From Mycobacterium sp. ITM-2016-00316 (GTDB lineage: Bacteria > Actinomycetota > Actinomycetes > Mycobacteriales > Mycobacteriaceae), in contig NZ_CP134398.1 in the NCBI RefSeq assembly GCF_002968335.2, forward strand, positions 5,332,001 to 5,396,000: 64,000 bases of DNA, given 5' to 3'. Position numbers and translations under genes: made by a program. Positions 3,335 to 31,915 of the stretch are shown here, piece by piece (the stretch's first letter is position 1; each line of letters opens with the position of its first letter). The notes under the pieces are model-generated. The model was given only the letters and a program-made list of their open reading frames with translations. It was not told the DNA's origin and did no database searches.

Positions 3335-4056
3335 AGCAGACCCGTCTGTTGAATGATGAGAACCACCGCGCCGATCATCGAGACCGTGATCGCGGTCCAC
3401 CGCTGACGACTCGGGTTCAGGATCCGGTTTGCGTAGCGGGACAACACATATCCCAGCACCGCGGCGGGTATCAGGGCACCGAACATCGCCACGGTGTGCC
3501 GGTCGATGGCGCCGGTCAGGGCGAGCATGGCGATCGACATCAGTGAACCGATCAGGAAGAAGCTGCTCATCGTTCCCCGCAACGTCGGGCCCTCACTGCG
3601 CTGCCAGACCAGCGCCATCGGCGGGCCGCCGATGGACGTCGCGGTGCCCAGGACTCCCGACGTCGCCCCGGCCAGCACCAGATTGCGCCGCCGCGGTGCG
3701 GGCACCCAACCCAGCCCGGTCACCGCGACACCGCCGAGCACCACGACCGCGATGAGGATCGCCAGGGTGTGTTCGGGAATCGCGGCGAGCAGCAGGGCGC
3801 CGGCGATCGTGCCGGGCACCCGACCGAGCAGTGCCCAGCCCGTGCCCGACACGTCGATCGCGCCGCGTTCCTTGATCACCACCATCAGGGTGAGCACGGT
3901 CGCCAGCATGATCAGCGTCCCCGGCACCAGACCGGGATCCACCACGGCGACCACCGGGGCGGCCAGCATTCCCATGCCGAACCCGATGGAACCCTGCAGG
4001 CAGGACGCGAAAAGGACCGCGATCGCCACGACCGCGAATCCCAGGAAGCTGCTCAT
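3331..4056 (-). CDS. TauE/SafE-family membrane permease
   Basis: A 241-residue integral membrane protein of the TauE/SafE (sulfite exporter-like, DUF81) family with about seven or eight hydrophobic helices. The family's repeated motif is visible as 'GSIGFGMGMLAAPVVAVV' near the N-terminus and 'TSIGGPPMALVW' in the second half. Members move small organic or sulfur-containing anions across the inner membrane. Here it lies inside the ABC-importer/gudD operon and overlaps the IclR start by four bases, so an organic acid substrate is plausible. The substrate is not shown by the sequence. Confidence 0.8.
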   Translation of the reverse strand: MSSFLGFAVVAIAVLFASCLQGSIGFGMGMLAAPVVAVVDPGLVPGTLIMLATVLTLMVVIKERGAIDVSGTGWALLGRVPGTIAGALLLAAIPEHTLAILIAVVVLGGVAVTGLGWVPAPRRRNLVLAGATSGVLGTATSIGGPPMALVWQRSEGPTLRGTMSSFFLIGSLMSIAMLALTGAIDRHTVAMFGALIPAAVLGYVLSRYANRILNPSRQRWTAITVSMIGAVVLIIQQTGLL

Positions 4057-4057
4057 T

Positions 4058-4080
4058 TCCCGTCGCTTCGCTCGCCCACG
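4058..4080. repeat. Dispersed GCGAAGC-core element, copy 1
   Basis: The sequence CCCGTCGCTTCGCTCGCCC lies between the TauE and OppF genes. The same core recurs at about 15683, 54446 and 59330, each time at a gene border. The GCGAAGC core can fold as a very stable three-base-loop mini-hairpin. Flanking it here is a local duplication of GCTCATTTCCCG (4051-4062 and 4083-4094). Confidence 0.6.
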
Positions 4081-4095
4081 GCGCTCATTTCCCGC

Positions 4096-5121
4096 TCACG
4101 CGTTGGACAATGCCGACTGTTGCTCGTCGATACGGGGATGGTGGCACTCGGCGGCGTGTCCGGGCACCAGCACATCCAGCGAACGCGGCGGGCGCTGCTC
4201 GGCGCAGATCTCGGTGGCGGCCGCGCACCGGGTGCGGAACCGGCACCCCGACGGCGGGTTGAGCGGTGAGGGCACCTCGCCCTTGAGCAGGATGCGCTCG
4301 CCGCGCTGCTCGTCACGCAGTTTCGGGGCCGCCGACATCAGCGCCGACGTGTAGTGGTGGGACGCACGGTCGAAAACGGCCTCGGTCGGGCCATTTTCGA
4401 TGATCCGGCCGAGATACATGACGGCCACCCGATCGGCGACGTGGCGCACCACCGACAGGTCGTGCGAGATGAAGACGTAGGAGATCTTCAGTTCCTGCTG
4501 CAGATCATTGAGCAGGTTGAGCACCTGGGCCTGCACCGAGAGGTCGAGCGCGGACACCGGCTCATCACAGATGATGACCTCGGGGTTGAGCGCCAGCGCC
4601 CGCGCGATGCCGATGCGCTGGCGCTGACCGCCGGAGAACTCCTGCGGGTACTTACCGAAGGCCTTGGCGCCCAGGCCGACCAGATCGAGCAGGCCACGGA
4701 CCCGCATGTCCCGGTCCGCCCGCGACGCGTACAACGCCTTGTGGGTGCGCCACGGCTCGGCGATGATCTCGGCCGCGGTCATCCGGGAGTTCAGCGAGGC
4801 GTAGGGGTCCTGGAACACCATCTGCACGCGGCGGCGGAACGCGAGCAGATCCTTACCCTTCAGCCCGAACGGGTCGATACCGTCGAAGGTGACCGATCCG
4901 GAGTCCGGGCGTTCCAGCATCATCAGGGTGCGGGCCAGAGTGGACTTGCCGCAACCGGATTCGCCGACCAGGCCCAGCGTCTCGCCGCGGGCCAGGTCGA
5001 GGTCGATACCGTCCAGGGCGCGCAGCGTCTTGCCGCCGGACACTCGGAACGATTTGGTCAGCTCGCGAACCGACAACACCTGATCGGTGCCCTGAGGCAG
5101 AGTGGCATCGATATCAGGCAT
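4096..5121 (-). CDS. Dipeptide/oligopeptide-type ABC transporter ATPase (OppF/DppF-like)
   Basis: A 341-residue ATP-binding subunit. Walker A is 'GESGCGKST', the signature is 'FSGGQRQRIGIARAL', Walker B is 'VIICDEPVSALD', and the switch His follows in 'VFISHDLS'. The C-terminal oligopeptide/dipeptide extension carries the cysteine-containing motif 'GCRFRTRCAAATEIC', which binds an Fe-S cluster in some relatives. It pairs with the OppD-like ATPase encoded just upstream (8-base overlap) to energise the two permeases of this operon. The family imports peptides, nickel chelates, opines or plant sugars. Here, by context, sugar acids or their conjugates are the likely cargo (inferred). Confidence 0.9.
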   Translation of the reverse strand: MPDIDATLPQGTDQVLSVRELTKSFRVSGGKTLRALDGIDLDLARGETLGLVGESGCGKSTLARTLMMLERPDSGSVTFDGIDPFGLKGKDLLAFRRRVQMVFQDPYASLNSRMTAAEIIAEPWRTHKALYASRADRDMRVRGLLDLVGLGAKAFGKYPQEFSGGQRQRIGIARALALNPEVIICDEPVSALDLSVQAQVLNLLNDLQQELKISYVFISHDLSVVRHVADRVAVMYLGRIIENGPTEAVFDRASHHYTSALMSAAPKLRDEQRGERILLKGEVPSPLNPPSGCRFRTRCAAATEICAEQRPPRSLDVLVPGHAAECHHPRIDEQQSALSNA

Positions 5122-6133
5122 TGGAGACCTCCCCGGCGAAATGGCAGGCGGACTTGCGCCGGCTGCCAGCGTCCTGCAGACCCGGACGGGTGCTGCGACA
5201 GATATCGCGGACCAGCGGGCAACGGTCCTGGTAGACGCAGCCGGGCGGGATCGAGTGCAGGTCCGGTGGCGAGCCGCCGATGGACTTCAGTTCGGCCCCG
5301 CGTTCGGCGGCGACGGGCACCGAGTCCAGCAGGCCCTTGGTGTAGGGGTGCTTCGGGTCGCCGAAAACCTCGGCAACCGAACCGGTTTCGACGATGCTGC
5401 CGGCGTACATCACAGCAACCCGGTCGGCCTCCTCGGCGACCAGCGCGAGATCGTGGGTGATCAGCACGACGGCCATGTCGTATTCGGTGCGCAGGCTCTT
5501 CAGCAGCGCCATGATCTGCGCCTGCACCGTGACATCCAGTGCGGTCGTCGGCTCATCGGCGATCAGCACCTTGGGGTTCAGCGCGACGGCCATCGCGATG
5601 AGCAGGCGCTGCCGCATACCGCCGGAGAACTGATGCGGGTAGGCCTTCATCCGCTCCTCGGGCTGCGGGATACCCACGCGCTCCATCAGTTCCATGGCCC
5701 GCCGTTTGGCTTCCTTGGCCTTCATCCCGTGGTGGATGCGGAACGGCTCGGCGAGCTGGGTGCCGACGGTGTAGAGCGGGTTGAGGGCGGTGAGCGCGTC
5801 CTGGAAGACGATCGCGAGCTCGGGGCCGGCCATCTCGCGGCGCTTCTTGCGGTCAGCGGTGATCAGATCGGTGTCACCGATGCGCGCCGATCCGTCCACC
5901 ACCTGGGCGACCGGCTCCAGCAGGCCGACCAGCGCGGTGGCGGTCATCGACTTACCGCAGCCCGATTCCCCGAGCAGCGCCAGCGTCTCACCGCTGCGGG
6001 CGGCGAAGCTGACGTGGTCGACGGCGCGGACGGTGCCGGCGATGGTGCGGATGTCGACGGTGAGATCCTCCACCCGCAACGCGGGGTCGGCGTCCGTCCG
6101 ATCCACGGGCGGGTGTTCGGCGACAGCAGTCAT
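5114..6133 (-). CDS. Dipeptide/oligopeptide-type ABC transporter ATPase (OppD/DppD-like)
   Basis: A 339-residue ATPase with Walker A 'GESGCGKSM', signature 'FSGGMRQRLLIAMA', Walker B 'VLIADEPTTALDVT' and switch His in 'VLITHDLALV'. The C-terminal region has the family's cysteine motif around 'GCVYQDRCPLVRDIC'. The ATG at 6133 directly abuts the TAG stop of the OppC-like permease gene, and its own stop overlaps the OppF-like gene, so the five importer genes are probably one transcript. It forms the heterodimeric motor with the OppF-like protein on the cytoplasmic face of the membrane. Confidence 0.9.
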   Translation of the reverse strand: MTAVAEHPPVDRTDADPALRVEDLTVDIRTIAGTVRAVDHVSFAARSGETLALLGESGCGKSMTATALVGLLEPVAQVVDGSARIGDTDLITADRKKRREMAGPELAIVFQDALTALNPLYTVGTQLAEPFRIHHGMKAKEAKRRAMELMERVGIPQPEERMKAYPHQFSGGMRQRLLIAMAVALNPKVLIADEPTTALDVTVQAQIMALLKSLRTEYDMAVVLITHDLALVAEEADRVAVMYAGSIVETGSVAEVFGDPKHPYTKGLLDSVPVAAERGAELKSIGGSPPDLHSIPPGCVYQDRCPLVRDICRSTRPGLQDAGSRRKSACHFAGEVSNA

Positions 6134-7114
6134 CTACAGAGCCTTTCCGGACTTGGCGAAGCGGGACAGTCGCTTCTGCGGAACAGTCAGCCGCCACCGC
6201 TGGGCGGGATCGGTGGCGATACGTGCCCAGGCCGCCAGGATGGTGGCCGACACCGTGGTGATGACGATGGCGAGGCCCGGCAGGAAGGACAGCCACCACG
6301 CGGTGTGCAGGTAGGTGCGGCCCTGGGCGACCATCAGGCCCCAGCTGACGTCGGGGGGCTGAATTCCGATGCCCAGGAAGCTCAGCGAGCTCTCGGCCAG
6401 CATCACGTAACAGAAGTCCAGGGTGGCCACCGTCAGCAGGGTCGGCAGCACGATGGGCAGCACATGCCGGGTGATGATCGAGGTGCCGCTGGCGCCGAAG
6501 GTGCGGGCGGCGTCGACGAACACCCGGGTGGACAGCTCAGCGGACTCGGCGCGGGCGGTGCGCAGGTAGACCGGGATACGGGTGATCGCCAGCACCGCAA
6601 CAATATTGGCCGCGCTCGGGGAAAACACGTAGAGCACGACCACGGCGAGCAACAGCGACGGGAAGCTCATGATGACGTCGGCGACCCGCATCGCGACGGT
6701 CTCACGCCACCCGCGGTAGTAGCCGGCCCACATGCCGATGATGGATCCGACGACGGCCGAGATCACCACGGCGGGTATGGCCACCGACAGGGTGGTCTGG
6801 CAGGCGACGATGAGACGGGCCAGCATGCTGCGGCCCAGCGGGTCGGTGCCGAGCACGTTGGCCCAGCCGTGGGCGAGGGTGAAGGGCGCCTGGTTGGAGT
6901 TGTCCAGGTCGATGTCGGTGGCCAGATCGCCGACCAGCATCGGGCCGAACAGCGCGGTCAACGCGACCAGGCCGAGGACGGTGGCGGCGACGGCCGCCAC
7001 CCGGTCGTTGACCAGCATGCGGAACCACACCGAGCGACCGGACGTCTTGCGCGATCCCGGTTCTCCGACGATGGCGGTGGTCGGCTTGACCGGCACCAGA
7101 TCGATTTGAGTCAT
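6134..7114 (-). CDS. ABC transporter permease (OppC/DppC-like)
   Basis: A 326-residue inner-membrane permease with an N-terminal cytoplasmic tail, one membrane anchor (about residues 40-65) and a five-helix core. The EAA loop lies around 'VFVDAARTFGASGTSIITRHVLP', where the ATPases dock. The start at 7114 is chosen for the AAGGAAAG Shine-Dalgarno sequence just upstream and its position 10 bases after the OppB stop; a longer in-frame reading would run into the OppB gene. It partners with the OppB-like permease to form the channel. Confidence 0.88.
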   Translation of the reverse strand: MTQIDLVPVKPTTAIVGEPGSRKTSGRSVWFRMLVNDRVAAVAATVLGLVALTALFGPMLVGDLATDIDLDNSNQAPFTLAHGWANVLGTDPLGRSMLARLIVACQTTLSVAIPAVVISAVVGSIIGMWAGYYRGWRETVAMRVADVIMSFPSLLLAVVVLYVFSPSAANIVAVLAITRIPVYLRTARAESAELSTRVFVDAARTFGASGTSIITRHVLPIVLPTLLTVATLDFCYVMLAESSLSFLGIGIQPPDVSWGLMVAQGRTYLHTAWWLSFLPGLAIVITTVSATILAAWARIATDPAQRWRLTVPQKRLSRFAKSGKAL

Positions 7115-7124
7115 CTGTCTTTCC

Positions 7125-8054
7125 TTAAACCTTGGCCGGTTCCCGGACGCGTGCGTCGAGCAACGCGTAGCAGGCGTCGATGGCGATGTTGAGGATGAAG
7201 ATGCTGACGGCGGTGAGCAGAACCGCTGCCTGCAGCACCGCGAAATCACGTTGCAGGATGGCGTCGATCATCAGCTTGCCGATACCTGGCCAGCCGAAGA
7301 TGGCCTCCACCACCACGGCGCCGTTGATCAGCCCGACGGCCAGGTCCCCGGCCACGGTCAGCGCGGGAGCCGCCGCATTGCGCAGCGCGTGGTGGGTGAC
7401 CACCCGAAAATCGCTGGCACCCTTGCTACGGGCCAGCCGGACATAGGGAGCCGACAGTGCCGACACCATGGCGCCGCGCACCACCTGCGTCAGCACGCCG
7501 AGCGGCCGGATCATCAGGGTGGCGATCGGCAGCACCCAGGACAGCACCCCCGCGTCGGTACCCGAGGTGGGCAGCCAACCCATCAGCACCGAGAACAGCC
7601 AGACACCGGTGATGGCGAACCAGAAGTCCGGGATCGATGCCGCGGTCATGGACAGCAGGCTGGAGAACCGGTCGGCCAGCGAGTTGGGCCGGTAGGCGGC
7701 CCAGCAGCCGATGACGACGGCGCCGATGATGGCGAGCAGCATGGTCACGAAGGCCAGCTGCAGGGTGGCCGGAAAGGCGCGCAGCGCCATCTCGGATGCG
7801 GATTCGCCGGTGCGCAGCGAGGTTCCGAAGTCCAGGTGGACGATGCCCTTGAAGTAGTCGAAGAGCTGGACGATCAGTGGGTCGTTGAAGCCGTTGGCGT
7901 CGGCGAAGGCCTGGCGCTGATCGGGTGTCGCGGATTCGGGCAGGTACAGGTTGGTGGGATCGCCGGTGAGCCTGGCAAGCAGGAACACCCCCAGCAGCAC
8001 GATCACCAACGGTAATGCGCTGGTGTACATCCGGCGTCGAACGAAGGAGAACAT
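7125..8054 (-). CDS. ABC transporter permease (OppB/DppB-like)
   Basis: A 309-residue permease with the usual OppB layout: an N-terminal helix ('ALPLVIVLLGVFLLARL'), an extracytoplasmic segment of about 70 residues, then five further helices. The EAA loop 'YVRLARSKGASDFRVVTHHALRN' contacts the ATPases. It is the second gene of the operon, 35 bases after the substrate-binding protein gene, and is followed closely by the OppC-like gene. The substrate is unknown; the sugar-acid context is suggestive only. Confidence 0.9.
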   Translation of the reverse strand: MFSFVRRRMYTSALPLVIVLLGVFLLARLTGDPTNLYLPESATPDQRQAFADANGFNDPLIVQLFDYFKGIVHLDFGTSLRTGESASEMALRAFPATLQLAFVTMLLAIIGAVVIGCWAAYRPNSLADRFSSLLSMTAASIPDFWFAITGVWLFSVLMGWLPTSGTDAGVLSWVLPIATLMIRPLGVLTQVVRGAMVSALSAPYVRLARSKGASDFRVVTHHALRNAAAPALTVAGDLAVGLINGAVVVEAIFGWPGIGKLMIDAILQRDFAVLQAAVLLTAVSIFILNIAIDACYALLDARVREPAKV

Positions 8055-20150: not shown

Positions 20151-23100
20151 GTGACAGCGGAGCCCGGGCAGGCCATACCTCCCCAGTACCTACTTTCCCC
20201 GGCGGCAGCTCCCCCGCGGACCCTGATCGACGTCCTCTACGACACCGCGAACCGTTTCCCGGATGCCCCCGCGATCGATGACGGCGACGTGCAGCTGACC
20301 TATTCGGAACTGGTCAGCGATATCGAAGAGAGCGTGCAGTGGCTCGCCGCCCGCGGCGTCGGCCGCGGCGATCGCGTCGGCATCCGGATGGCCTCGGGCA
20401 GCTACGCGCTCTACACCGCGATCCTGGCCACCCTTGCCACCGGGGCCGCCTACGTCCCGGTCGACGCCGACGACCCCGAAGAACGGGCCGCACTCGTGTT
20501 CGGGGAGGCGCAGGTGGTGGCCATCATCACCGACGCGGGCCTGGTGCGCGGCCCGGGATCCTCGCGCGGCTGGCGAGCGGCGGCACCGCTGACCCGCGAT
20601 GACGCCTGGATCATCTTCACCTCCGGATCGACCGGTACACCCAAGGGTGTGGCGGTCACCCACCGCAACGCGGCCGCCTTCGTCGACGCCGAGGCCCGGA
20701 TGTTCCTCGCCGGCGCGCCGCTGGGCCCCGGTGACCGGGTGCTCGCCGGGCTGTCGGTCGCCTTCGACGCATCCTGCGAGGAGATGTGGCTGGCCTGGCG
20801 CCACGGCGCCTGCCTGGTGCCCGCTCCGCGGTCGCTCGTGCGCAGCGGTATGGACCTGGGTCCGTGGCTGGTGACCCGCGACATCACCGTCGTCTCGACC
20901 GTCCCGACCCTGGCCGCGCTGTGGCCCGCCGAGGCGCTGGAAGCCGTCCGGCTGCTGATCTTCGGCGGCGAGGCCTGCCCACCCGAACTGGCCGAACGCC
21001 TCGCCGTCGACGGTCGCGAGGTATGGAACACCTACGGCCCCACCGAGGCGACCGTGGTGGCCTGCGCGGCGCCGCTGGACGGAAGATCCGCGGTGAGCAT
21101 CGGGCTGCCGCTGGCCGGCTGGGACCTCGTCGTCGTCGACAAGGACGGGCTGCCGGTCGGGCTGGGCGAAACCGGCGAACTCGTCATCGGCGGTGTCGGG
21201 CTGGCCCGGTACCTGGACCCCGAGAAGGACGCCGAGAAATACGCACCGATGCCGACGCTGGGCTGGGCACGCGCCTACCGCAGCGGGGACCTGGTGCGGC
21301 TGGAGGCCGACGGCCTGTACTTCCAGGGTCGCGCCGACGACCAGGTCAAGGTCGGTGGACGCCGCATCGAACTGGGCGAGGTGGACGCCGCGCTGGTGAA
21401 CCTGCCCGGCGTCAGCGGCGGGGCGGCCGCGGTGCGCCGTACCACCAGCGGCACTCCCCTGCTGGTCGGCTACATCGCCAGTGCCGATCCGGGCTTCGAC
21501 GTGGCCGCGGCCCGCACCGCGCTGTCGGAGGCCCTGCCCGCGGCGTTGGTGCCCCGACTGGTCCTGCTCGACGAACTGCCCACCCGGACCTCGGGCAAGG
21601 TCGACCGCAACGCGCTGCCGTGGCCCCCGCCCGGAGCAGCCGCGGAGGAGGAACCCGACCTCGGCGGCACCATGGGCTGGCTGGCCGGCCTGTGGCGCGA
21701 TGTGCTGGCCGCGGCGGTGGATGGCCCGGAGGCCGATTTCTTCGCCCTCGGCGGTGGATCCCTGTCGGCCGCGCAACTGGTCACCGCGGTCCGCGGACGC
21801 TACCCGCAGGTGACCGTCGCCGATCTGTACGACCACCCCCGGCTCGGCTCACTGGCCGGTTACCTCGACGAGCTGGCCCCGCCGCCGGAGGTGGTGCGCC
21901 GCGATGTGAAGCCGACACCGGTGCTGACCCAACTGGCGCAGGTGGCGATGTCGTTGCCGCTGGCGACGCTGACCGGCCTGCAGTGGGTGATCTGGCTGGC
22001 GATCCTCAACAACATCGCGGCCGCCACCGAGCTGGTGCCGTGGGCGGCAACGGCGAACTGGTGGTGGATCGTCGCCGGCTTCCTGCTCTTCATCACCCCG
22101 CCGGGCCGGATGGGCATCGCCGTACTCGGCGCCCGCACCCTGCTGTCGGGATTGCAGCCGGGCAGCTACCGCCGCGGCGGTAGCGAGCATCTGCGCGTCT
22201 GGTTCGCCGAGCGACTGGCCGAGGCCAGCGGTGCGGAGAATCAGGCCGGCGCCCCGTGGCTGGTGTATTACGCTCGCGCCCTTGGCAATACGGTCGGCAA
22301 AGGGGTCGACCTGCACTCGGCGCCGCCGGTCACCGGCATGCTGACCCTGGGCCACCGTTGTTCCATCGAACCCGAGGTCGACCTGACCGGACACTGGATC
22401 GACGGCGACGTGTTCCATGTCGGACCGATCACCGTCGGCAACGACTCCACCATCGGCGCGCGCACCACCCTCTTCCCGGGCGCGGTCGTCGGCAAGAACG
22501 CCGATGTCGCCGCGGGCTCCGGCGTGGTCGGCAAGGTGAAGAACGGCCAGTACTGGAAGGGTTCGCCGGCAGCGAAATCCGGTAAGGCACGCCACCCCTG
22601 GCCGCAGGAGCGGCCCGGCCGCGCACCGGTGTGGGTGGCCTTCTACAGCGTGACATCGATGCTGCTGGGTGGGCTGCCGCTGGCCGCGCTGGCCGCCGGG
22701 CTCGCCGTGCTTGGCTGGGCCATCCGCGGCACCGCCACCCCGGCCGACGCCCTGCTCCCCGCCCTGGCCTGGACACCGGTGGCGGCACTGGTGGCAATGG
22801 TGGTGTACGCGGGGCTGACGGTGATCGGGGTGCGCCTGCTCTCGGCAGGCCTGACCGAGGGCTATCACCCGGTGCGCAGCCGCGTCGGCTGGCAGTTGTG
22901 GGCCACCGAGCGGCTGATGGATGCCGCGCGCAACTACCTGTTCCCCATCTACGCCAGCCTGCTGACACCGTGGTGGCTACGCCTGCTCGGCGCGAAAATC
23001 GGTAAGGACACCGAGATCTCGACAGCGCTGCTGACCCCGAAGTTCACCGAGGTGCAGGACGGCGCGTTCCTGGCCGATGACACCATGGTGGCCTCCTACG

Positions 23101-24035
23101 AACTCGGCGGCGGATGGATCCACGTCGCGAAGGCGACGATCGGCAAACGCGCATTCCTCGGCAACTCCGGCATCACCCAGCCGGGACGCCGGGTCCCCGA
23201 CGACGGTCTGGTGGCGGTGCTGTCGGCGGCACCGCACAAGTCCAAGGCCGGCTCGTCGTGGCTGGGCAGCCCGCCGATCCGGTTGCGCCGCAAACCCACT
23301 ACCGCCGATGTGATCCGCACCTTCAATCCGTCGGTCAAGCTGCGGGTGATGCGCTCGGCCGTGGAGACCTGCCGCCTCATCCCGGTCATCGTGACCTTCG
23401 CGATCGGCGTCGCGGTGCTGGCCGCGCTGCACCAGCTGGCCGATGCCATCGGCTACGGCTGGACCGCGCTGGCCGGCGGGCTGGTGCTCCTGATCGCCGG
23501 AGCGGTGGCCGGAGCCATCGCGGTGGCGGCGAAATGGCTTGTGGTGGGCCGTATCGACGCCATCGAGCACCCGTTGTGGTCATCGTTCGTGTGGCGCAAT
23601 GAGGTCTCGGACACCTTCGTGGAGACGGTGGCCGCACCGTGGTTCGCCCGGGCCGCCACCGGCACTCCGGTGATGAACATCTGGCTGCGCGGGCTCGGTG
23701 CGAAGATCGGCCGCGGGGTGTGGTGCGAGACGTACTGGCTGCCCGAGGCGGACCTGATCACCCTGGGCGACGGCAGCACCGTCAACCGCGGCTGCGTGGT
23801 GCAGACCCACCTCTTTCACGACCGGATCATGCGGATGGACACCGTCATCCTCGACGAGGGCGCGACACTGGGCCCGCACTGTGTGGCTCTGCCGGCATCG
23901 CGGATCGGCGAGGGCGCCACCGTCGGACCGGCATCGCTGGTGATGCGCGGTGACGAGGTGCCGCGGTGGACCAGGTGGCAGGGCAACCCGATTGCGCCGT
24001 GGACGATCAAACGGCCGAAGAAGCACGACCGGTGA
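20151..24035 (+). CDS. Pls/PosA-family single-module non-ribosomal peptide synthetase with membrane domain
   Basis: A 1294-residue protein with the architecture of Streptomyces epsilon-poly-L-lysine synthetase (about 1319 residues). An adenylation domain spans about residues 20-505, with A3 'FTSGSTGTPKG' near 156, A5 'NTYGPTEAT', A7 'YRSGDLV', A8 'KVGGRRIELGEV' and A10 'SGKVDRNALP' with Lys483. A thiolation domain carries 'LGGGSLSA' with Ser537 for phosphopantetheine. Six membrane helices lie in three pairs (about 590-660, 825-885, 1065-1115), alternating with three tandem left-handed beta-helix-like domains (about 680-820, 895-1055, 1120-1290). No condensation or thioesterase domain is present. 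In Pls the tandem domains join activated amino acids into an isopeptide chain. The start is GTG at 20151; the stop overlaps the next gene as GTGA. The amino acid used cannot be stated. Confidence 0.9.
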   Translation: MTAEPGQAIPPQYLLSPAAAPPRTLIDVLYDTANRFPDAPAIDDGDVQLTYSELVSDIEESVQWLAARGVGRGDRVGIRMASGSYALYTAILATLATGAAYVPVDADDPEERAALVFGEAQVVAIITDAGLVRGPGSSRGWRAAAPLTRDDAWIIFTSGSTGTPKGVAVTHRNAAAFVDAEARMFLAGAPLGPGDRVLAGLSVAFDASCEEMWLAWRHGACLVPAPRSLVRSGMDLGPWLVTRDITVVSTVPTLAALWPAEALEAVRLLIFGGEACPPELAERLAVDGREVWNTYGPTEATVVACAAPLDGRSAVSIGLPLAGWDLVVVDKDGLPVGLGETGELVIGGVGLARYLDPEKDAEKYAPMPTLGWARAYRSGDLVRLEADGLYFQGRADDQVKVGGRRIELGEVDAALVNLPGVSGGAAAVRRTTSGTPLLVGYIASADPGFDVAAARTALSEALPAALVPRLVLLDELPTRTSGKVDRNALPWPPPGAAAEEEPDLGGTMGWLAGLWRDVLAAAVDGPEADFFALGGGSLSAAQLVTAVRGRYPQVTVADLYDHPRLGSLAGYLDELAPPPEVVRRDVKPTPVLTQLAQVAMSLPLATLTGLQWVIWLAILNNIAAATELVPWAATANWWWIVAGFLLFITPPGRMGIAVLGARTLLSGLQPGSYRRGGSEHLRVWFAERLAEASGAENQAGAPWLVYYARALGNTVGKGVDLHSAPPVTGMLTLGHRCSIEPEVDLTGHWIDGDVFHVGPITVGNDSTIGARTTLFPGAVVGKNADVAAGSGVVGKVKNGQYWKGSPAAKSGKARHPWPQERPGRAPVWVAFYSVTSMLLGGLPLAALAAGLAVLGWAIRGTATPADALLPALAWTPVAALVAMVVYAGLTVIGVRLLSAGLTEGYHPVRSRVGWQLWATERLMDAARNYLFPIYASLLTPWWLRLLGAKIGKDTEISTALLTPKFTEVQDGAFLADDTMVASYELGGGWIHVAKATIGKRAFLGNSGITQPGRRVPDDGLVAVLSAAPHKSKAGSSWLGSPPIRLRRKPTTADVIRTFNPSVKLRVMRSAVETCRLIPVIVTFAIGVAVLAALHQLADAIGYGWTALAGGLVLLIAGAVAGAIAVAAKWLVVGRIDAIEHPLWSSFVWRNEVSDTFVETVAAPWFARAATGTPVMNIWLRGLGAKIGRGVWCETYWLPEADLITLGDGSTVNRGCVVQTHLFHDRIMRMDTVILDEGATLGPHCVALPASRIGEGATVGPASLVMRGDEVPRWTRWQGNPIAPWTIKRPKKHDR

Positions 24036-25372
24036 CGCCCGCCAAGAAAGCTGCCCGCAAGGCGGCACACCAACCCCCGGTCATCGACCCCTACCTGCCC
24101 CGCAACGGTAACTTCGGCTACCGGGTGTCGCGGTACGAATTGGATCTCGAATACAAGGTGGCGATCAACCGTCTCGCCGGGACCGTCACGATCACCGCGG
24201 CGACGCTGGCCGCCCTGCGCACCTTCACCCTGGACCTGTCCGACGCGCTGTCGGTGTCGAAGGTGACGGTCAACGGCCGGCGCCCCGCCCAGTTCCGGAC
24301 GTCGGCGGGCAAGCTACACATCACGCTCGGCGCCACGCTGCCCGCCGGTGCGGCGATGACCGTCGCGGTCCGCTACGGCGGAACCCCCAAGCCGCTGCGA
24401 ACCCTATGGGGCGAGGTCGGTTTCGAGGAGCTGTCCAACGGCGCCCTGGTGGCCGGACAGCCCAACGGCGCGGCCTCCTGGTTCCCCTGCGACGATCATC
24501 CGGCCGCCAAGGCCAGCTTCCACATCCGGATCAGCACCGAAAGCCCGTACTACGCGCTGGCCAACGGTGAACTGCTGTCCAAGCAGGTGCGGGCCAGCTT
24601 CACCACCTGGGTCTACGAGCAGACCGAGCCGACCTCGACCTACCTCATCACCCTGCAGATCGGCGAGTACAACCGCCACCGGCTGCAGAAGAGCCCGGTA
24701 CCCATGCACGCCGTCCTCCCGGACCGGTTGCGGCGCAACTTCGAACACGATTTCGGCCGGCAGCCCCAGATGATGAAGCTGTTCACCCGCCAGTTCGGCC
24801 CCTACCCGCTCGCGGGCGGTTACACCGTCGTCGTCACCGATGACGATCTGGAGATACCACTTGAGGCGCAAGGGCTTTCGATATTCGGAGCCAACCATTG
24901 CGACGGCAGGCGCAGCGCGGAGCGGTTGATCGCCCACGAACTCGCCCATCAGTGGTTCGGCAACTCGGTGACGGTGCGCCGCTGGCGTGACATCTGGTTG
25001 CACGAGGGATTCGCCTGCTATGCGGAGTGGCTGTGGTCCGAGGAGTCCGGCGGCCCCAGCGCCGACGAGCGGGCGCGGTCGTATCACCGCAGGCTGAAGG
25101 ACTCACCCCAGAACCTGCTGCTGACCGACCCGGGCCCGGCCGATATGTTCGACGACCGGGTGTACAAACGGGGTGCGCTCACCCTGCATGCGCTGCGCGG
25201 CGTGATCGGCGACGACAACTTCTTTGCGCTGCTTCGTGATTGGACCACCCGGTACCGGCACAGCACAGCCGTCACCGATGACTTCACCGGCCTGGCTGCC
25301 AATCACGCCGACGTGTCGCTGCGCACACTGTGGGACCGCTGGCTGTACTCCAAGGACGTACCGGACCTGTGA
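24032..25372 (+). CDS. M1-family zinc metallopeptidase (aminopeptidase)
   Basis: A 446-residue M1 peptidase with the zinc motif 'HELAHQWFG' at about residues 302-310 and the third ligand Glu in 'WLHEGFACYAEW'. It has the N-terminal beta-sandwich and the catalytic domain but not the large C-terminal helical domain, as in short actinobacterial members. The family exopeptidase motif GxMEN is replaced by 'LEAQG' near 276. No signal peptide is seen; the N-terminus is Lys/Ala-rich. The GTG start at 24032 overlaps the NRPS stop. In Streptomyces, an aminopeptidase of this kind degrades epsilon-poly-lysine, which suggests turnover of, or self-protection from, the NRPS product (inferred). Confidence 0.88.
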   Translation: MTPAKKAARKAAHQPPVIDPYLPRNGNFGYRVSRYELDLEYKVAINRLAGTVTITAATLAALRTFTLDLSDALSVSKVTVNGRRPAQFRTSAGKLHITLGATLPAGAAMTVAVRYGGTPKPLRTLWGEVGFEELSNGALVAGQPNGAASWFPCDDHPAAKASFHIRISTESPYYALANGELLSKQVRASFTTWVYEQTEPTSTYLITLQIGEYNRHRLQKSPVPMHAVLPDRLRRNFEHDFGRQPQMMKLFTRQFGPYPLAGGYTVVVTDDDLEIPLEAQGLSIFGANHCDGRRSAERLIAHELAHQWFGNSVTVRRWRDIWLHEGFACYAEWLWSEESGGPSADERARSYHRRLKDSPQNLLLTDPGPADMFDDRVYKRGALTLHALRGVIGDDNFFALLRDWTTRYRHSTAVTDDFTGLAANHADVSLRTLWDRWLYSKDVPDL

Positions 25373-26619
25373 CCGACGCCAGCGCGGCGGTGCCGGCCCG
25401 CGGTCCGGTGACGCGGGGAAGCGTCGCCCGCGTCGGGGTCGCCACCGCACTGTCCGCGCTGTGCGGGTACGCCGTGCTCTATCTGGCCGCCCGTGACCTG
25501 GACCCGGCCGGGTTCTCCCTGTTCGGGGTGTTCTGGGGGGCGTTCGGGCTGGTCAGCGGCGCCGCCAACGGCCTGCTGCAGGAATCCACCCGCGAGGTCC
25601 GCGCGATGCGCGGGCAACACCGTCCCGCCGCCACCACGCGGCCCATGCGGATCGCCGCCGTCGTCGGCATCGGCTCCGCGGTGCTGATCGCGGTCACCGC
25701 GCCGCTGTGGTCGGCCCGGGTGTTCACCGAGGACCAGGTGCTGAGCGTGGTCCTGTTGAGCATCGGGCTGGCCGGATTCTGCTTGCACGCAACGCTGCTC
25801 GGGATGCTCGCCGGGGTGGACCGCTGGACGCAGTACGGGTCGCTGATGGTGACCGATGCGGCGTTTCGGGTGGCGATCGCCGCAACCGCCTTCGTGCTGG
25901 GGTGGGGGCTGGCGGGTTTCCTGTGGGCCACCGTCGCCGGGTCGGTGGCCTGGCTGATCCTGTTGGCGCTCTCGCCGGCGACTCGCGACGCGGCCCGGCT
26001 GACGGCCGCGGGCAGCGCCCGTACCTTTCTGACCGGAGCCTTCCACTCGGTGGCCGCGGCCGGCGCCAGCGCCGTCCTCATCATGGGTTTCCCGGTGCTG
26101 CTCAAGGCCACCACCGGTGAACTCGGCGCGGCAGGGGGCGTGGTGATCCTGGCGGTGACGCTCACCCGGGCACCGCTGCTGGTACCGCTGACCGCCATGC
26201 AGGGCAACCTGATCGCGCACTTCGTGGACCAGAGCCACCGTCGTCTGCGGGCGCTGGTGGTGCCGGCCGTGGCGGTGACCACGATCGGCGGCCTTGGTGT
26301 GGTAGCCGCCTGGTCGGCCGGACCGTGGCTGCTGCGCAGCGCCTTCGGCCCCGACTATCAGGCCGCGGGCGGGCTGCTGGCCTGGTTCACCGCGGGTGCA
26401 GTGGCCATCGCCCTGCTCACCCTCACCGGTGCGGCTGCCGTCGCGGCGGCGCTGCACCGCGCGTATGCGGCGGGGTGGGTTGGCGCCACGCTGGCCGCGG
26501 TGGCGCTGCTGCTCCTCCCGCTGGACCTGGAGACCCGGACCGTCATCGCGTTGTTGTGCGGGCCGATCGTGGGCATCGCCGTGCACCTGTACGCACTCGC
26601 CGCGGCCGATCGCGGGTAG
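25369..26619 (+). CDS. Polytopic membrane protein, polysaccharide flippase (Wzx/MATE)-like
   Basis: A 416-residue membrane protein with about 12 hydrophobic helices spread over the whole length and no large soluble domain. The opening 'VARVGVATALSALCGYAVLYLAARDLDPAGFSLFGVFWGA' pattern and the internal arrangement fit the MOP superfamily (Wzx-like flippases). The GTG start at 25369 overlaps the M1 peptidase stop as GTGA, so all three genes are translationally coupled. A flippase or exporter for the NRPS product, or for a lipid-linked intermediate, is a sensible guess but unproven. A relationship to the mycobacterial Rv3630 membrane protein is possible from synteny. Confidence 0.75.
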   Translation: MTDASAAVPARGPVTRGSVARVGVATALSALCGYAVLYLAARDLDPAGFSLFGVFWGAFGLVSGAANGLLQESTREVRAMRGQHRPAATTRPMRIAAVVGIGSAVLIAVTAPLWSARVFTEDQVLSVVLLSIGLAGFCLHATLLGMLAGVDRWTQYGSLMVTDAAFRVAIAATAFVLGWGLAGFLWATVAGSVAWLILLALSPATRDAARLTAAGSARTFLTGAFHSVAAAGASAVLIMGFPVLLKATTGELGAAGGVVILAVTLTRAPLLVPLTAMQGNLIAHFVDQSHRRLRALVVPAVAVTTIGGLGVVAAWSAGPWLLRSAFGPDYQAAGGLLAWFTAGAVAIALLTLTGAAAVAAALHRAYAAGWVGATLAAVALLLLPLDLETRTVIALLCGPIVGIAVHLYALAAADRG

Positions 26620-27204
26620 TCAGTAGCGGCCGAGCATATCGGCCAGCATCGCGAGTTTGCGCTCCTCGAACTCCGGGTCGGCCATCACCGGCCGCAGGAT
26701 GGCCGCACCGTCGAAGGTGTTGGTCAGGATCGCCGTCAGCACGGCCCTGGCGTCGTCGGGGAGTCCATCTGTGGGCGTGACCGCGCCGGCGGCATCGAAG
26801 ATCTTGGCGCTGTACTCGGTGAGCACGACATGCAGGGTGGCGCGCAGCTTTTCATCGGTACGGGCGGCGACCATCAACTCGTAGAGCACAGCGTTGGTGT
26901 CGCTGGCCGTGATATCGCGCAGCACGGAGAGCACTGCGGGCAGCGCCGGTTCGCCGCTCGGGATCTGAGCCACCTGCTTGCTGAACGATTCGAGCTGCCT
27001 ACGCAGCACCTCATACCCGGTGGCGGCCATGAAGTCCCCCATCGTCGGGTAATGCCGGAACAACGCACCGACCGAAAGGCCGGCCCGTTTGGCGATGACC
27101 GCCGCCGATGCCCGCGCGTAACCCATCTCGACGATGGTCGCGATGCTGGCGTCCAGAAGCCGCGCAATGGTGTCCGCGCGGCGCTGCTGCTGGGTGCGGG
27201 CCAT
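26620..27204 (-). CDS. TetR-family transcriptional regulator
   Basis: A 194-residue regulator with an N-terminal helix-turn-helix ('ASAAVIAKRAGLSVGALFRHYPTMGDFMAA') and a helical effector domain. The start at 27204 is taken because it lies one base after the stop of the amidohydrolase gene, which suggests co-transcription; the longer reading would run through that gene. Its likely operator is the palindrome at 29026-29035 in front of the amidohydrolase gene. It converges on the flippase-like gene, whose stop is adjacent. Confidence 0.85.
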   Translation of the reverse strand: MARTQQQRRADTIARLLDASIATIVEMGYARASAAVIAKRAGLSVGALFRHYPTMGDFMAATGYEVLRRQLESFSKQVAQIPSGEPALPAVLSVLRDITASDTNAVLYELMVAARTDEKLRATLHVVLTEYSAKIFDAAGAVTPTDGLPDDARAVLTAILTNTFDGAAILRPVMADPEFEERKLAMLADMLGRY

Positions 27205-27205
27205 C

Positions 27206-29005
27206 TCAGACGGTGGCCGAGCCGGTCGAGCGCAGCGACGGGGAATCCGATGCGCCGGCGCGCAGGTAGCGCCCGGATCGCACCGTCGTGCCGTAGCCGT
27301 CGCGGAACTCACCCCGGGTGAACACCACCTGGCCGTTGACTCCGGTGGCGATGACGGTGGCGTCGTTGCGGTTCACCATGCGGCTCAGGTCACCATAGAA
27401 GGGCACCGTCGCCTCGTGATAGGCGTTGACCGAATCATCCAGCGCGCTGACGTCTATCACCACGAAGTCGGCACGGTCACCGCGGCGCAGGGTGCCGGCG
27501 TCCAGCCCGAACCAATCGGCCACCTCGGCCGTCAGCCGGTGCACCGCGCGCTGCGGGGTGAGAAACGGCCGACCCGCCTCATCGGCATCGCGCACCCGCT
27601 TGAGCAGCCGCAGCGCATAGTTGTAGAACGCCATATTGCGAAGGTGCGCACCGGCATCCGAGAACCCCATGTGCACCGACGGCTCGTCGGCGAGCTTGTC
27701 GAGCTGCTCCGGGCGATGGTTGGCCACGATGGTCGTCCAGCGCACATTGCGCTCGCCGTTCTCCACGAGCACGTCCAGGAAGGCGTCGAGCGGGTGGATA
27801 CCGCGCTCATCGGCGATCTGACCGAAACTCTTGCCGATCAGCGATGCATCGGGGCAGCCCACGATCTTGGCGTCGTGGAAGTCGCGGTGCCACAACGCGG
27901 GTCCGAGCTTGCGGCGGTCGAAGGACCTACGGAACCGGCGGCGGTACTCGGGGTCGGCGAGCAGCGTGTTGCGCTCCAGCTGATCGCGCAGGTGCAGCGC
28001 CGCCGTACCAGCCCCGAACTCCTCGAACACCGGCAGATCGATTCCGTCGGAATACAGTTCGAACGGCACCGGCAGATGCTGGAACCGCACCTTCGCGTCC
28101 AGCACCCGGTTCAACAGCCGGGTGCCGCGGCCCAGCACGTGCACGGCCCCGGGTGCGGACTTGGCGTCGGCCGAGACCAGCAGGCTCATCTTCACCCCGC
28201 GCCGACGGCCGAACATTGCGCTGCTCTCCAGGAAGAAGTTCAACGCCTCGTGGGCCTTGGCGACGTTCGGTGCGCTCTGCAGGATGCGGCCGCGCCGGCG
28301 CAGCACCTTGATCAGCCGGCGACGCTCCCGCCATGTCGCGAAGGTGGAGGGCAACGCGCGGGACCGGAACCGGTCGCCGTCGAGCTTGTCGATGGCGGCG
28401 TCCATCCCGGACATGCCGAGCATCCCGGCGTCCAGCGCGGCATCGAGGCGCTGCGCCATCGTCTCCAGCTCGGCCTCGGTGGGCGTCACGCCACGGGTGG
28501 TGGCACGGTCGAGTCCCAGCACCGAGGCGCGCAGGTCCGAGTGCCCCAGCAGCGAGGCGATGTTCGGGCCCAGCGGCAGGGCGTCGATGGCGGCCACGTA
28601 CTCGGCGGGGTTCGACCACGTCTTGTGGGCGGCCAGCGCACCGAGCACGAACTGCCGCGGCACGGCCTCGACGCGGCTGAACAGGTCGGCGGCGTCCTCG
28701 GTGTCGGCGTACACGGTGGACAGTGAGCACATGCCGAGCAGCACGGTGGTGACACCGTGGCGCACCGATTCGCGCAGACCCGGGTCGAGCAGCACCTCGG
28801 CGTCGTAGTGGGTGTGCACATCGATGAAACCGGGGGTCACCCATTTGCCGGTCGCGTCGATGACCTCGGGGCAACCGGTCTCGTCCAGCGCAGCGGCCGA
28901 CACCTCGGCGACGAGGCCATCGCGAATACCCAGGGAGCGGGTCAGCGGCGGGCGCCCGGTGCCGTCGAACCACAGACCGTTGCGGATGATCACGTCATAG
29001 GGCAT
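27206..29005 (-). CDS. Amidohydrolase family protein (N-acyl-D-amino-acid deacylase-like)
   Basis: A 599-residue metal-dependent hydrolase of the amidohydrolase superfamily, close to the D-aminoacylase/dihydroorotase-like group. The first metal motif is 'GFIDVHTHYDAEV' near residue 60, and the metal-binding Asp lies in 'MGFSDAGAHLRNMAF'. The composite beta-sandwich is built from both ends ('NGLWFDGTG', 'ADFVVIDVSALDD'). It is cytoplasmic, since no signal peptide is seen. It is followed directly by a TetR gene in the same direction. The substrate, an N-acylated or cyclic amide, is unknown. The last codons contain a weak variant of the dispersed GCGACGGGG repeat. Confidence 0.82.
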   Translation of the reverse strand: MPYDVIIRNGLWFDGTGRPPLTRSLGIRDGLVAEVSAAALDETGCPEVIDATGKWVTPGFIDVHTHYDAEVLLDPGLRESVRHGVTTVLLGMCSLSTVYADTEDAADLFSRVEAVPRQFVLGALAAHKTWSNPAEYVAAIDALPLGPNIASLLGHSDLRASVLGLDRATTRGVTPTEAELETMAQRLDAALDAGMLGMSGMDAAIDKLDGDRFRSRALPSTFATWRERRRLIKVLRRRGRILQSAPNVAKAHEALNFFLESSAMFGRRRGVKMSLLVSADAKSAPGAVHVLGRGTRLLNRVLDAKVRFQHLPVPFELYSDGIDLPVFEEFGAGTAALHLRDQLERNTLLADPEYRRRFRRSFDRRKLGPALWHRDFHDAKIVGCPDASLIGKSFGQIADERGIHPLDAFLDVLVENGERNVRWTTIVANHRPEQLDKLADEPSVHMGFSDAGAHLRNMAFYNYALRLLKRVRDADEAGRPFLTPQRAVHRLTAEVADWFGLDAGTLRRGDRADFVVIDVSALDDSVNAYHEATVPFYGDLSRMVNRNDATVIATGVNGQVVFTRGEFRDGYGTTVRSGRYLRAGASDSPSLRSTGSATV

Positions 29006-29142: not shown

Positions 29143-30126
29143 GTGACCTGGTTGGTGACCGGAGGCGCAGGCTATATCGGATCGCACGTCGTCCGGGCGC
29201 TCACCGATGCGAACACCCCGGTGGTCGTGATCGATGACCTCTCCACCGGGTTGGCGCAGTTCGTCCCCGACGGAGTCGAACTCGTCAGAGCAAATCTGCT
29301 CGATGCCGACACCGTCGAGTCGACGCTGCGCGATCACCGGGTGACCGGAGTGGTGCACGTCGCCGGATACAAGTATGCGGGCGAGTCGGTGAAGCACCCG
29401 CTGCACACCTACCAGCAGAACGTCACGGCCATGACGGTGCTGCTCGCAGCGATGGCCAAGACCGGCGTGAACCAGATCGTCTTCTCCAGCAGCGCGGCGA
29501 CCTACGGAACCCCCGATGTCGAGGTGGTCGACGAGCGAACCCCCACTTCGCCCGAATCACCCTATGGCGAAAGCAAACTCATCGGGGAATGGCTCCTTCG
29601 CGACGTGGCCCGCTCCCGAGAACTGCGCCACACCAGCCTGCGGTATTTCAACGTGGTCGGGTCCGGCTCGCCCGACATCTACGACCGCAGCCCGCACAAC
29701 CTGTTCCCCAAGGTATTGGACATGCTCTTCCACGGCCAGATCCCGCAGATCAACGGCGGGGACTACGCCACACCCGACGGAACCTGCGTGCGCGACTACG
29801 TGCATGTCTCGGATCTGGCCTCGGCACACGTCGCGGCCGCGCACCGACTGGCGACAGGTGAACCCGTCGAGGCCGTGTACAACTTGGGCAGCGGCTCGGG
29901 CACATCGGTACGCGAGATCATGACGGCCATCCGCGATGTCACCGGAATCGATTTCGATCCTGCGGTCACCCCGCGCAGACCTGGAGATCCAGCCCGCATC
30001 GTGGCGGCCGGGGAGCTGGCGGCGCGCGATCTGGACTGGCGGATGCGACATTCGCTGACCGATATGGTGGCATCTGCATGGGCGGCCCGCCAGGCCGCCG
30101 GCGAAAGCTATCCGACCGCGGGCTGA
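29143..30126 (+). CDS. galE: UDP-glucose 4-epimerase
   Basis: A 327-residue short-chain dehydrogenase fold epimerase that interconverts UDP-glucose and UDP-galactose, supplying galactose for arabinogalactan. It has NAD-binding 'TGGAGYIGSH' at the N-terminus, the catalytic Ser in 'FSSSAATYG', 'SPYGESKL' with the Tyr-Lys pair, and 'RYFNVVGSG'. The GTG start at 29143 follows AGGGAG by five bases. It corresponds best to mycobacterial GalE1 (Rv3634c), although here it runs in the same direction as the Rv3635-like gene instead of away from it. Confidence 0.9.
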   Translation: MTWLVTGGAGYIGSHVVRALTDANTPVVVIDDLSTGLAQFVPDGVELVRANLLDADTVESTLRDHRVTGVVHVAGYKYAGESVKHPLHTYQQNVTAMTVLLAAMAKTGVNQIVFSSSAATYGTPDVEVVDERTPTSPESPYGESKLIGEWLLRDVARSRELRHTSLRYFNVVGSGSPDIYDRSPHNLFPKVLDMLFHGQIPQINGGDYATPDGTCVRDYVHVSDLASAHVAAAHRLATGEPVEAVYNLGSGSGTSVREIMTAIRDVTGIDFDPAVTPRRPGDPARIVAAGELAARDLDWRMRHSLTDMVASAWAARQAAGESYPTAG

Positions 30127-30154: not shown

Positions 30155-31915
30155 ATGAACTGGGTCGCTAGGGGTGCCGTCGCGCTGATCGCGGTGCAGC
30201 TGCTGGTCCGGTCCGCGCTGGCCTTCGGCGGCGACTTCTACTGGGATGACCTGATCCTGATCGGCCGGGCCGGCACCCAGAGCCTGCTGTCCGCGCAGTA
30301 CCTGTTCGACGATCATGACGGGCACGTGATGCCGGGGGCCTTCCTGGTGGCCGGCGCCATCACCCGGCTGGCGCCACTGGAATGGGCAGGCCCGGCGATC
30401 AGCCTGCTGGTGCTGCAGCTGCTGGCGTCGGCGGCGCTGCTGCGGGCACTGCACGTGATCCTGGGCTGGCGCCCGGTGCTGCTGATACCGCTCACCTTCG
30501 CGCTGTTCACCCCGCTGACGGTGCCCGGTTTCGCCTGGTGGGCGGCCGGATTGAACTCGTTGCCCATGCTGGCCGCGCTGGCCTGGGTATGCGCCGACGC
30601 GATCCTGTTGGTACGCACCGGGAATCGCCGCTACGCCGCGACCGGCATCCTGGTCTATCTCGGCGGGCTGCTGTTCTTCGAGAAGTCCGCAGTCATCCCG
30701 TTCGTCGCGTTCACGGTGGCGGCGCTGCTGGCCTGGGTGACCGGCGCCTCCGTCGCGGAGGTCTGGCGCCGCGGAATCCGGCTCTGGAGTGGTCTTCTCG
30801 CGGTGACCGCCGCCTGGATCGGGGTGTACCTGATCGTTGTCGACCAGCAGCGGTGGTCGCTGGACCTCGGCATGACCTGGGATCTGCTCCTGCGTTCGGT
30901 GACCCACGGCATCGTTCCCGGGTTGGCCGGTGGGCCGTGGGACTGGCAGCGCTGGGCGCCGGCATCCCCGTGGGCCACGCCCTCGGTGATGGTCATGGTG
31001 CTGGGTTGGCTGGTAGTGGCCGCCGTGGCGGCGGTGTCGCTGGCCCGCAAGGAGCGCATCGGCCCGGTGTGGCTGGCCGCCGTCGGCTATGCGGTGGCCT
31101 GCCAGGTGCCGATCTACCTGATGCGCTCATCGCAGTTCACTGCCCTGGAGCTGGCCCAGACCCTGCGCTATCTGCCCGATCTGGTGGTGGTCCTGGCCCT
31201 GCTTGCCGCGGTGGCCTTCTGTGCCCCGAACCGCGCGTCGTCGCGGTGTCTGGATGCCTCACCCACCCGATCCGTGGCGGTCACCGTCCTCGCGGCGGCT
31301 TTCGTCGGCAGCAGCCTGTACTCGACGGCGACCTTCCTGCGGGCCTGGCAGGACAGCCCGGTCCCGGCCTACCTGGACAACGCCCGCACCGGGTTGGCCT
31401 CGGTGGACCCACTGGCGGCGCCACTGTTGGATCAGGAGGTCGACCCCATGATCATGCAGCGGGTGGCCGCCCCGGAGAATCTGGCCAGCCACATGTTCGC
31501 GCTGCTGCCCGAACGCCCCGAATTCAACAGTGCCACCACAGAACTGAGAGTTCTCGACAGCACAGGCCGGCTGCGCGACGCGCTCGTCACCTGGGTACGC
31601 ACCATCGTCCCCGGGCCCGCGCCCAACTGCGGATACCTGGTGCAGACCGAGGACTCCGAGGTCGTCATGCCGCTGGACGGGCCGTTGCTGCCTGCGGACT
31701 GGACGGCGGAGATCAACTATCTGGCCAACAGCGAGGGATCGCTCACCATGTCGCTGGCCGAGGGCCTGCCGGTGAAGGTTCCGGTGCATCCCGGGCTGAA
31801 CCGGGTGTTCGTGCGGCTGTCCGGCGCGGGTGACGCCGTCCGCGTGAGCGCGAACACCGCAGCGCTGTCGGTGTGTGTCGCCTCCGGTCCGATCGGATTC
31901 GTGGCGCCCCGATAG
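30155..31915 (+). CDS. Conserved mycobacterial polytopic membrane protein (Rv3635-like)
   Basis: A 586-residue protein with around ten to eleven transmembrane helices in the first 400 residues and a C-terminal extracytoplasmic domain of about 190 residues. An early acidic motif, 'FGGDFYWDDLILIGRAG', sits in the first external loop, as in GT-C-type glycosyltransferases, where such acidic residues bind the lipid-phosphate sugar donor. The position between galE and holB matches Rv3635 of M. tuberculosis. A role in cell-envelope glycosylation is plausible but not shown. It starts 28 bases after galE. Confidence 0.75.
   Translation: MNWVARGAVALIAVQLLVRSALAFGGDFYWDDLILIGRAGTQSLLSAQYLFDDHDGHVMPGAFLVAGAITRLAPLEWAGPAISLLVLQLLASAALLRALHVILGWRPVLLIPLTFALFTPLTVPGFAWWAAGLNSLPMLAALAWVCADAILLVRTGNRRYAATGILVYLGGLLFFEKSAVIPFVAFTVAALLAWVTGASVAEVWRRGIRLWSGLLAVTAAWIGVYLIVVDQQRWSLDLGMTWDLLLRSVTHGIVPGLAGGPWDWQRWAPASPWATPSVMVMVLGWLVVAAVAAVSLARKERIGPVWLAAVGYAVACQVPIYLMRSSQFTALELAQTLRYLPDLVVVLALLAAVAFCAPNRASSRCLDASPTRSVAVTVLAAAFVGSSLYSTATFLRAWQDSPVPAYLDNARTGLASVDPLAAPLLDQEVDPMIMQRVAAPENLASHMFALLPERPEFNSATTELRVLDSTGRLRDALVTWVRTIVPGPAPNCGYLVQTEDSEVVMPLDGPLLPADWTAEINYLANSEGSLTMSLAEGLPVKVPVHPGLNRVFVRLSGAGDAVRVSANTAALSVCVASGPIGFVAPR

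Follow-up and report, generated by a model that had tools for sequence, protein, structure and literature searches.

The 64,000-nucleotide window of Mycobacterium sp. ITM-2016-00316 analyzed here (contig NZ_CP134398.1, positions 5,332,001 to 5,396,000) contains three open reading frames (ORFs) head to tail on the + strand, which encode a poly(amino acid) synthetase of the Pls family (20151..24035; 1294 amino acids (aa), GTG start), an M1 zinc peptidase (24032..25372; 446 aa), and a flippase-like membrane protein of the MOP superfamily (25369..26619; 416 aa). It appears probable that the first two genes form a unit of the pls-pldII type that makes and degrades epsilon-polylysine, and that the third encodes a flippase of a glycan pathway, which lies downstream through inherited gene order. 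Both junctions are GTGA overlaps, the start of the M1 gene lying over the stop of pls (24032-24035) and the start of the flippase-like gene over the stop of the M1 gene (25369-25372). The ORF coordinates and both junctions bear out a first-pass annotation of this DNA, which had described three coupled ORFs and had read them as one operon for the synthesis, trimming, and export of a poly(amino acid). The host genome is a single contig of 5.99 Mb with one TIGR02353 match.

Residues 596-1281 of the synthetase score 744 bits with TIGR02353 (Pls/PosA, an equivalog-domain model of NCBIfam; cut-off 423.1), and by this match the enzyme is a member of the Pls family, as had been proposed from its layout. 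Four matches were obtained in a Pfam scan, namely PF00501, PF00550, and two weak hexapeptide matches; neither a condensation nor a thioesterase domain was matched, in agreement with the earlier description of an adenylation-thiolation protein of 1294 residues. The adenylation (A) domain (20217..21638, as aligned by phmmer) has its best PDB match in 7wew, the A domain of an epsilon-poly-L-lysine synthetase (623 bits, 63.8% identity over 500 columns). A thiolation (T, or carrier) domain with the motif GGGSLS comes next (residues 510-572, 21678..21866; PF00550, E 8e-12).

With regard to the substrate, the residues named as lysine contacts in the crystallized A domain, D213, E217, S256, T301, and K495 (PMC11253843, in whose numbering residues are one behind the chain index of 7wew), align with D206, E210, S249, T294, and K483 of the mycobacterial enzyme in the phmmer alignment, the first four within an ungapped block. 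Papers are cited here by their PubMed Central numbers. The pocket code of the window's enzyme, DAESIGTVVK, is read from D206, A207, E210, S249, I270, G272, T294, V302, V303, and K483 and equals that of 7wew at 10/10 positions. Positions 5, 6, 8, and 9 of the code were placed by a motif spacing that we assume to hold, and the letters found there are those of 7wew. The same code is present in 80 of the 84 aligned rows (the window included, loci L001 and L082-L084 of its own genome left out); of the others, three are truncated where a contig ends, and L087 is decayed. Since the ten pocket residues are those of 7wew, L-lysine is the predicted substrate.

It was reported that the Pls/PosA family makes several polymers of this kind (PMC10522769), which lends some support to the use of ornithine, diaminobutyrate, or another diamino acid. 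The delta-poly-L-ornithine synthetase PosA, which belongs to the same family TIGR02353 and is encoded by a single-gene operon, has the code DMEHNGTVSK, and at position 2 of the code Ala has been tied to lysine, Met (as in PosA) to ornithine, and Phe (as in the PDAP and PDAB enzymes) to shorter diamino acids (PMC10522769). Comparison of the specificity residues thus yields the lysine code of 7wew, unlike that of PosA; diamino acids other than lysine were rejected on the pocket letters and are quite improbable as substrates.

The C-terminal part of the synthetase is predicted to fold into three left-handed beta-helix domains set among pairs of helices. In the AlphaFold2 model of residues 585-1294, built with 44 sequences (mean predicted local distance difference test (pLDDT) 84.8, predicted template modeling score (pTM) 0.86), three pairs of long helices alternate with three strand-rich domains. 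Predicted membrane helix pair 1 (residues 591-664, 21921..22142) is followed by the beta-helix-like tandem domain C1 (approximately residues 671-820, 22161..22610, limits read from the model), helix pair 2 (residues 827-898, 22629..22844), domain C2 (approximately residues 904-1038, 22860..23264), helix pair 3 (residues 1076-1132, 23376..23546), and domain C3 (approximately residues 1139-1274, 23565..23972). A hydropathy scan flagged five of the six model helices, missing the first helix of pair 1, as well as one stretch inside the A domain. Domain C1 is partly below pLDDT 70 and has weak Hexapep matches at residues 759-792. When the whole C-terminal part was searched with Foldseek, hexapeptide-repeat acetyltransferases (including galactoside and serine acetyltransferases and GlmU) were found with weak scores (best E 5e-4, 3/410 matches at E <= 0.001, TM score of 0.45 normalized to the first target). 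In the literature, Pls is described with six membrane helices and with three tandem domains related to acetyltransferases (PMC8117764), with which the model agrees, as it does with the helix pairs and tandem domains of the first-pass annotation. Within C3, residues T1219, H1220, H1223, D1224, and R1225 are invariant across 78 sequences and may be candidates for the condensing site.

The second gene is tied to the first across the genus. In a survey of 198 genus genomes, 151 were Pls-positive at E <= 1e-20, including three with weaker matches (G045, 7e-103; G126, 4e-22; G176, 9e-125), and 149/198 passed the curated TIGR02353 cut-off. The M1 gene, counted at E <= 1e-60, was present in 150/151 Pls-positive and 0/47 Pls-negative genomes (Fisher p 5e-45, no phylogeny correction). 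Gene positions were compared for 149 Pls places (a second Pls copy in G030 being excluded), 150 of the 153 M1 places, and the best-scoring 150 of the 206 flippase-like places, which are closest to the window's gene in sequence. The two genes adjoin on one strand in 148/148 genomes with both places listed, and the layout is therefore not a matter of chance. An NTGA overlap of the pls stop with a possible M1 start was seen in 57 of the 80 loci read, and an M1 gene was found in 79/80 named loci, the contig of the remaining one (L016) ending where the pls match ends. The M1 match begins approximately 0.5-2.2 kb downstream of pls in three Tsukamurella loci and in L045, L053, and L077; in the Tsukamurella loci (L037, L041, and L042) the distance is 0.6-2.2 kb, and an insertion between the pair is possible. 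The second Pls copy in G030 (L088, G030:C82:1-8000) is 73% identical, no M1 match was seen beside it within the stretch read, and the usual pair is also present in that genome.

A similar picture was obtained in a class survey of 296 sampled genomes. An M1 protein at least 44% identical to the window's was found in 48 genomes outside the genus, 48/48 of which have a TIGR02353 match; pls adjoins the M1 gene in 47/48, the two being on different contigs in G332. Among controls (26 of the 72 genomes with weaker M1 matches only), a TIGR02353 match was detected in 5/26, and in four of these five the matched domain is followed, 950-978 bases past its end, by an M1 gene (40-42% identical). One control genome, Corynebacterium glutamicum, has a TIGR02353 match above the curated cut-off. 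One class genus contributes 12 genomes (7.3-11 Mb) whose M1 protein beside pls is 50-54% identical to that of the window. The M1 gene is thus supported as a constant partner of the synthetase, as in pls-pldII of Streptomyces (PMC8117764; PMC9223678), and the aminopeptidase partner foreseen by comparison with Streptomyces producers holds.

The peptidase itself matches PF01433 and PF17900 and carries an HEXXH-x18-E motif (H302, H306, and E325). H302, E303, H306, and E325 together with E278, which we take to belong to the GxMEN-type motif of M1 peptidases, are kept in 79/79 M1 rows longer than 400 aa, 2/81 rows having been dropped as short. No signal peptide or membrane segment was found by hydropathy in the window's M1 protein, and visual inspection of the N-termini of nine distant relatives, whose starts are uncertain, likewise revealed none. 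Given this lack of a hydrophobic signal or anchor segment, the M1 peptidase is predicted to be cytosolic, and a secreted peptidase was rejected on the same hydropathy result. A second, distant M1-type match (28% identical) occurs elsewhere in the host genome (L084, G000:C1:4009181-4010446).

The only Pls-positive genus genome without an M1 gene is that of locus L087 (G183:C1:4366000-4381000, 3263-7153). Its pls is a full-length open frame in which the signature motifs of the A domain, the lysine-binding Glu, and the catalytic Lys are lost. At positions invariant in the other 78 sequences, L087 is changed at 36/169 in the A domain, 35/178 in the C-terminal part, and 0/14 in the T domain. Its ratio of nonsynonymous to synonymous change (pN/pS) against three other sequences is 0.40-0.42 in the A domain and 0.53-0.65 in the C-terminal part, compared with 0.22-0.28 and 0.27-0.34, respectively, for three intact pairs from within the genus at similar synonymous distance (dS). 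Relaxed constraint on the L087 synthetase is suggested by these values, the lost motifs being the stronger point, because L071 and L081, which are intact and more distant, give similar pN/pS against the window (0.38-0.41 and 0.49-0.57) at higher dS. The flippase-like gene stands directly behind the L087 pls, followed by the epimerase gene and the gene of a 586-aa protein. This single genome agrees with the idea that the peptidase is of use only alongside a functional synthetase.

The decay in L087 might also be taken as a sign that the whole system is a silent relic without a product. Such a relic is very unlikely, considering the pN/pS of 0.22-0.34 over the A and C-terminal parts of the three intact pairs and the conservation of the catalytic residues in all M1 rows counted. 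More weight may be given to another reading, in which the enzyme is a lysine-activating relative that makes no free polymer, for example one or a few lysines being joined to a lipid or wall component from which the M1 peptidase removes them. The retention of Pls in 151/198 genomes is wider than would be expected of an optional antibiotic, and no mycobacterial polylysine is named in the literature among the matches listed. On the other hand, the full-length similarity at 744 bits covers the C-terminal polymerizing part, and it was reported that the Corynebacterium variabile enzyme, which has the same architecture, yields epsilon-polylysine 26-35 residues long when expressed in Streptomyces coelicolor (PMC8117764). 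A lysine-modified lipid or wall component thus appears doubtful as the product.

The third gene has a different distribution. The model of its protein shows a MOP fold (pLDDT 88.9), with MATE transporters and the lipid III flippase WzxE as best matches and Foldseek TM scores to the query of 0.50-0.73 among the matches listed. At E <= 0.001 there are 46 PDB matches, all of them titled MATE, MOP transporter, WzxE, or MurJ save one titled 'protein A'; no Pfam family was found at E <= 1. Over its entire length the protein shares 98% identity with protein P0014 of Mycobacterium frederiksbergense. The flippase-like gene occurs in 195/198 genus genomes, being nearly universal both without Pls (45/47) and with it (150/151), so that the co-occurrence with the synthetase that would mark a dedicated exporter fails.

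Export or flipping of the poly(amino acid) by the MOP-fold protein, which would make the three genes a make-trim-export operon as the first-pass annotation had it, nevertheless has several points in its favor: the GTGA overlaps at both junctions of the window, the MATE exporters within the MOP fold, the adjacency of the M1 and flippase-like genes in 83/111 genomes with both places listed, and an NTGA overlap between them in 28 of the 31 adjacent loci read. Against these stand the 45 Pls-lacking genomes that carry the gene, its retention beside the decayed synthetase of L087, and the positions of the 28 non-adjacent copies. Seventeen of the latter are on the same contig at a distance of at least 15 kb (eight at approximately 15-17 kb, eight at approximately 185-230 kb, and one farther), and 11 are on a different contig, in which case a contig end may mask adjacency. 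Moreover, no flippase-like match at E <= 1e-8 was detected in 31 Rhodococcus, Nocardia, and Tsukamurella loci, some of whose contigs end soon after the M1 gene, and Pls is itself membrane-bound and has been described as synthesizing and excreting the polymer (PMC8117764). A three-gene operon with its own exporter is therefore unlikely. Of the three-gene order proposed earlier, the pls-M1 part was borne out among the places listed, and the role of the third gene as a dedicated exporter was not supported.

The neighbors of the flippase-like gene point in another direction. In L085 and L086, which lack pls, and in L089, where pls is distant, it is followed by a GT2 glycosyltransferase gene, a DUF2304 gene, an epimerase gene on the opposite strand, and the gene of the 586-aa protein; L004 has the same followers with pls-M1 upstream. 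We take this to be the order of Rv3630 to Rv3635 in Mycobacterium tuberculosis (Rv3630-Rv3631-Rv3632-Rv3634c-Rv3635), whose products are presumably a membrane protein, a glycosyltransferase, a small membrane protein, an epimerase, and a membrane protein. The four relatives were likened to that block by gene order only, and their orthology is presumed. Rv3630 is reported to be MATE-like in structure (PMC8562490), and Rv3631 and its neighbors have been connected with arabinogalactan (PMC6487176). In many mycobacterial loci that were read, the 586-aa protein is encoded along with the flippase-like gene and an epimerase.

In the window, an NAD-dependent, galE-like epimerase gene (29143..30126, + strand; PF01370) and the gene of the 586-aa protein (30155..31915, + strand; no Pfam family at E <= 1) still lie downstream of the flippase-like gene, past an inserted TetR regulator gene and an amidohydrolase gene (within 26620-29005, - strand), an arrangement also seen in L078. 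Unlike the Rv3630-Rv3635 block, the window's genome has no match to the GT2 glycosyltransferase, the best there being 33% identical. Among close relatives of the third protein, the GT2 gene stands directly behind the flippase-like gene in G187 and G034 (third protein 93% and 88% identical to the window's) and has no match in G096 and G121 (98% and 89%). These positions and neighbors, together with the presence in Pls-lacking genomes, led to the rejection of a polymer exporter as the preferred interpretation, and the flippase-like gene probably belongs to a cell-wall sugar pathway rather than to the polymer pathway.

Taken together, the pls-pldII type unit would work as follows. The A domain would adenylate L-lysine, and the carrier domain would hold it as a thioester. 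The membrane-bound C-terminal part would then link lysines via their side-chain amines to give epsilon-poly-L-lysine or a short epsilon-oligolysine, whose release at or across the membrane would require no thioesterase. Co-translated with the synthetase and predicted to stay in the cytosol, the M1 zinc peptidase would cut the polymer to lysine for self-protection or turnover. The MOP-fold flippase would normally act with the glycosyltransferase, the DUF2304 protein, and the epimerase in a cell-envelope glycan pathway, its gene being downstream of pls-M1 through inherited gene order.

Several observations weigh against this scheme. Corynebacterium variabile produces no detectable polymer in its own culture (PMC8117764), and therefore the presence of the genes need not mean a product. 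It was also reported that PldII, whose gene is translationally coupled to pls, is located outside the membrane (PMC9223678), which differs from the prediction made here, and that inactivation of Pld and PldII left both production and polymer length unchanged (PMC8506220); because of this, the trimming role of the M1 peptidase may be wrong. Second Pls matches lie away from the close M1 gene in 7/48 class genomes, and the class search for Pls covered genomes with an M1 match, so that Pls genes without M1 may exist there. In addition, the glycosyltransferase, counted as missing when no match was found at E <= 1e-40, is missing in 48/151 Pls-positive versus 3/47 Pls-negative genomes (Fisher p 0.0002, no phylogeny correction), and 48/48 of these Pls-positive genomes keep the flippase-like gene. 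This retention is not explained by the glycan pathway alone and speaks for the three-gene operon; because of it, another role of the flippase-like protein, including export, is possible in the lineages lacking the glycosyltransferase, that of the window among them. A broader scenario, in which polylysine or a lipid-bound lysine oligomer is no optional antibiotic but belongs to an old mycobacterial physiology, with a cytosolic M1 peptidase as obligate partner and with the flippase co-opted to move the polymer or its lipid-linked form where the glycosyltransferase was lost, seems rather improbable.

The pls-M1 pair has known counterparts in other genera. An operon of pls and a peptidase gene has been published for Streptomyces and Corynebacterium variabile (PMC8117764; PMC9223678). 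The Streptomyces albulus pair of Pls (the enzyme of 7wew) and PldII shares with the window the gene order, translational coupling, the A-T-three tandem domain architecture, six helices, and the lysine pocket, with 64% identity between the A domains. Here, by contrast, a MOP-fold gene follows the pair, and the product is a predicted one; compared with the S. albulus PldII outside the membrane (PMC9223678), the window's M1 protein lacks an export signal. The C. variabile operon, from a coryneform actinobacterium of another genus, resembles the window in architecture and in gene pair, as judged from its description (PMC8117764). Closer to the window, pls has been predicted in Nocardia (PMC4035055), and a Rhodococcus cluster of the antiSMASH class NAPAA is called epsilon-poly-L-lysine (PMC10819586). 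In Nocardia and Rhodococcus, the pls-M1 pair is present in 28 fetched loci with Pls 66-72% identical to the window's, and the flippase-like gene in 0/28, some contigs ending soon after M1.

Since synthetases are on record from Nocardia, Rhodococcus, and Corynebacterium (PMC4035055; PMC10819586; PMC8117764), the kind of enzyme is already known, and it is the product that would be new to the genus. No mycobacterial polylysine was found among the literature matches listed, most subscription journals being outside the coverage, and none of these matches contradicts the earlier statement that such a product is not known to be described in mycobacteria. A Pls/PosA-like domain in a hybrid cluster is mentioned in PMC13291983, whose passages on mycobacterial clusters mention none.

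Epsilon-polylysine is a cationic antimicrobial that is used as a food preservative. If the proposed assignment is true, approximately three quarters of the sampled species of the genus (151/198) could make it. The strict pairing of pls with the M1 gene, together with L087, in which the M1 gene is missing and the synthetase decayed, makes the role of the peptidase directly testable. The separation of the flippase-like gene from the pair indicates that genes whose start and stop codons overlap do not necessarily serve a single pathway. Relatives already provide the enzymes, the gene order, and the probable product, but such a product, which is easy to test for, would be a novelty in this medically prominent genus.

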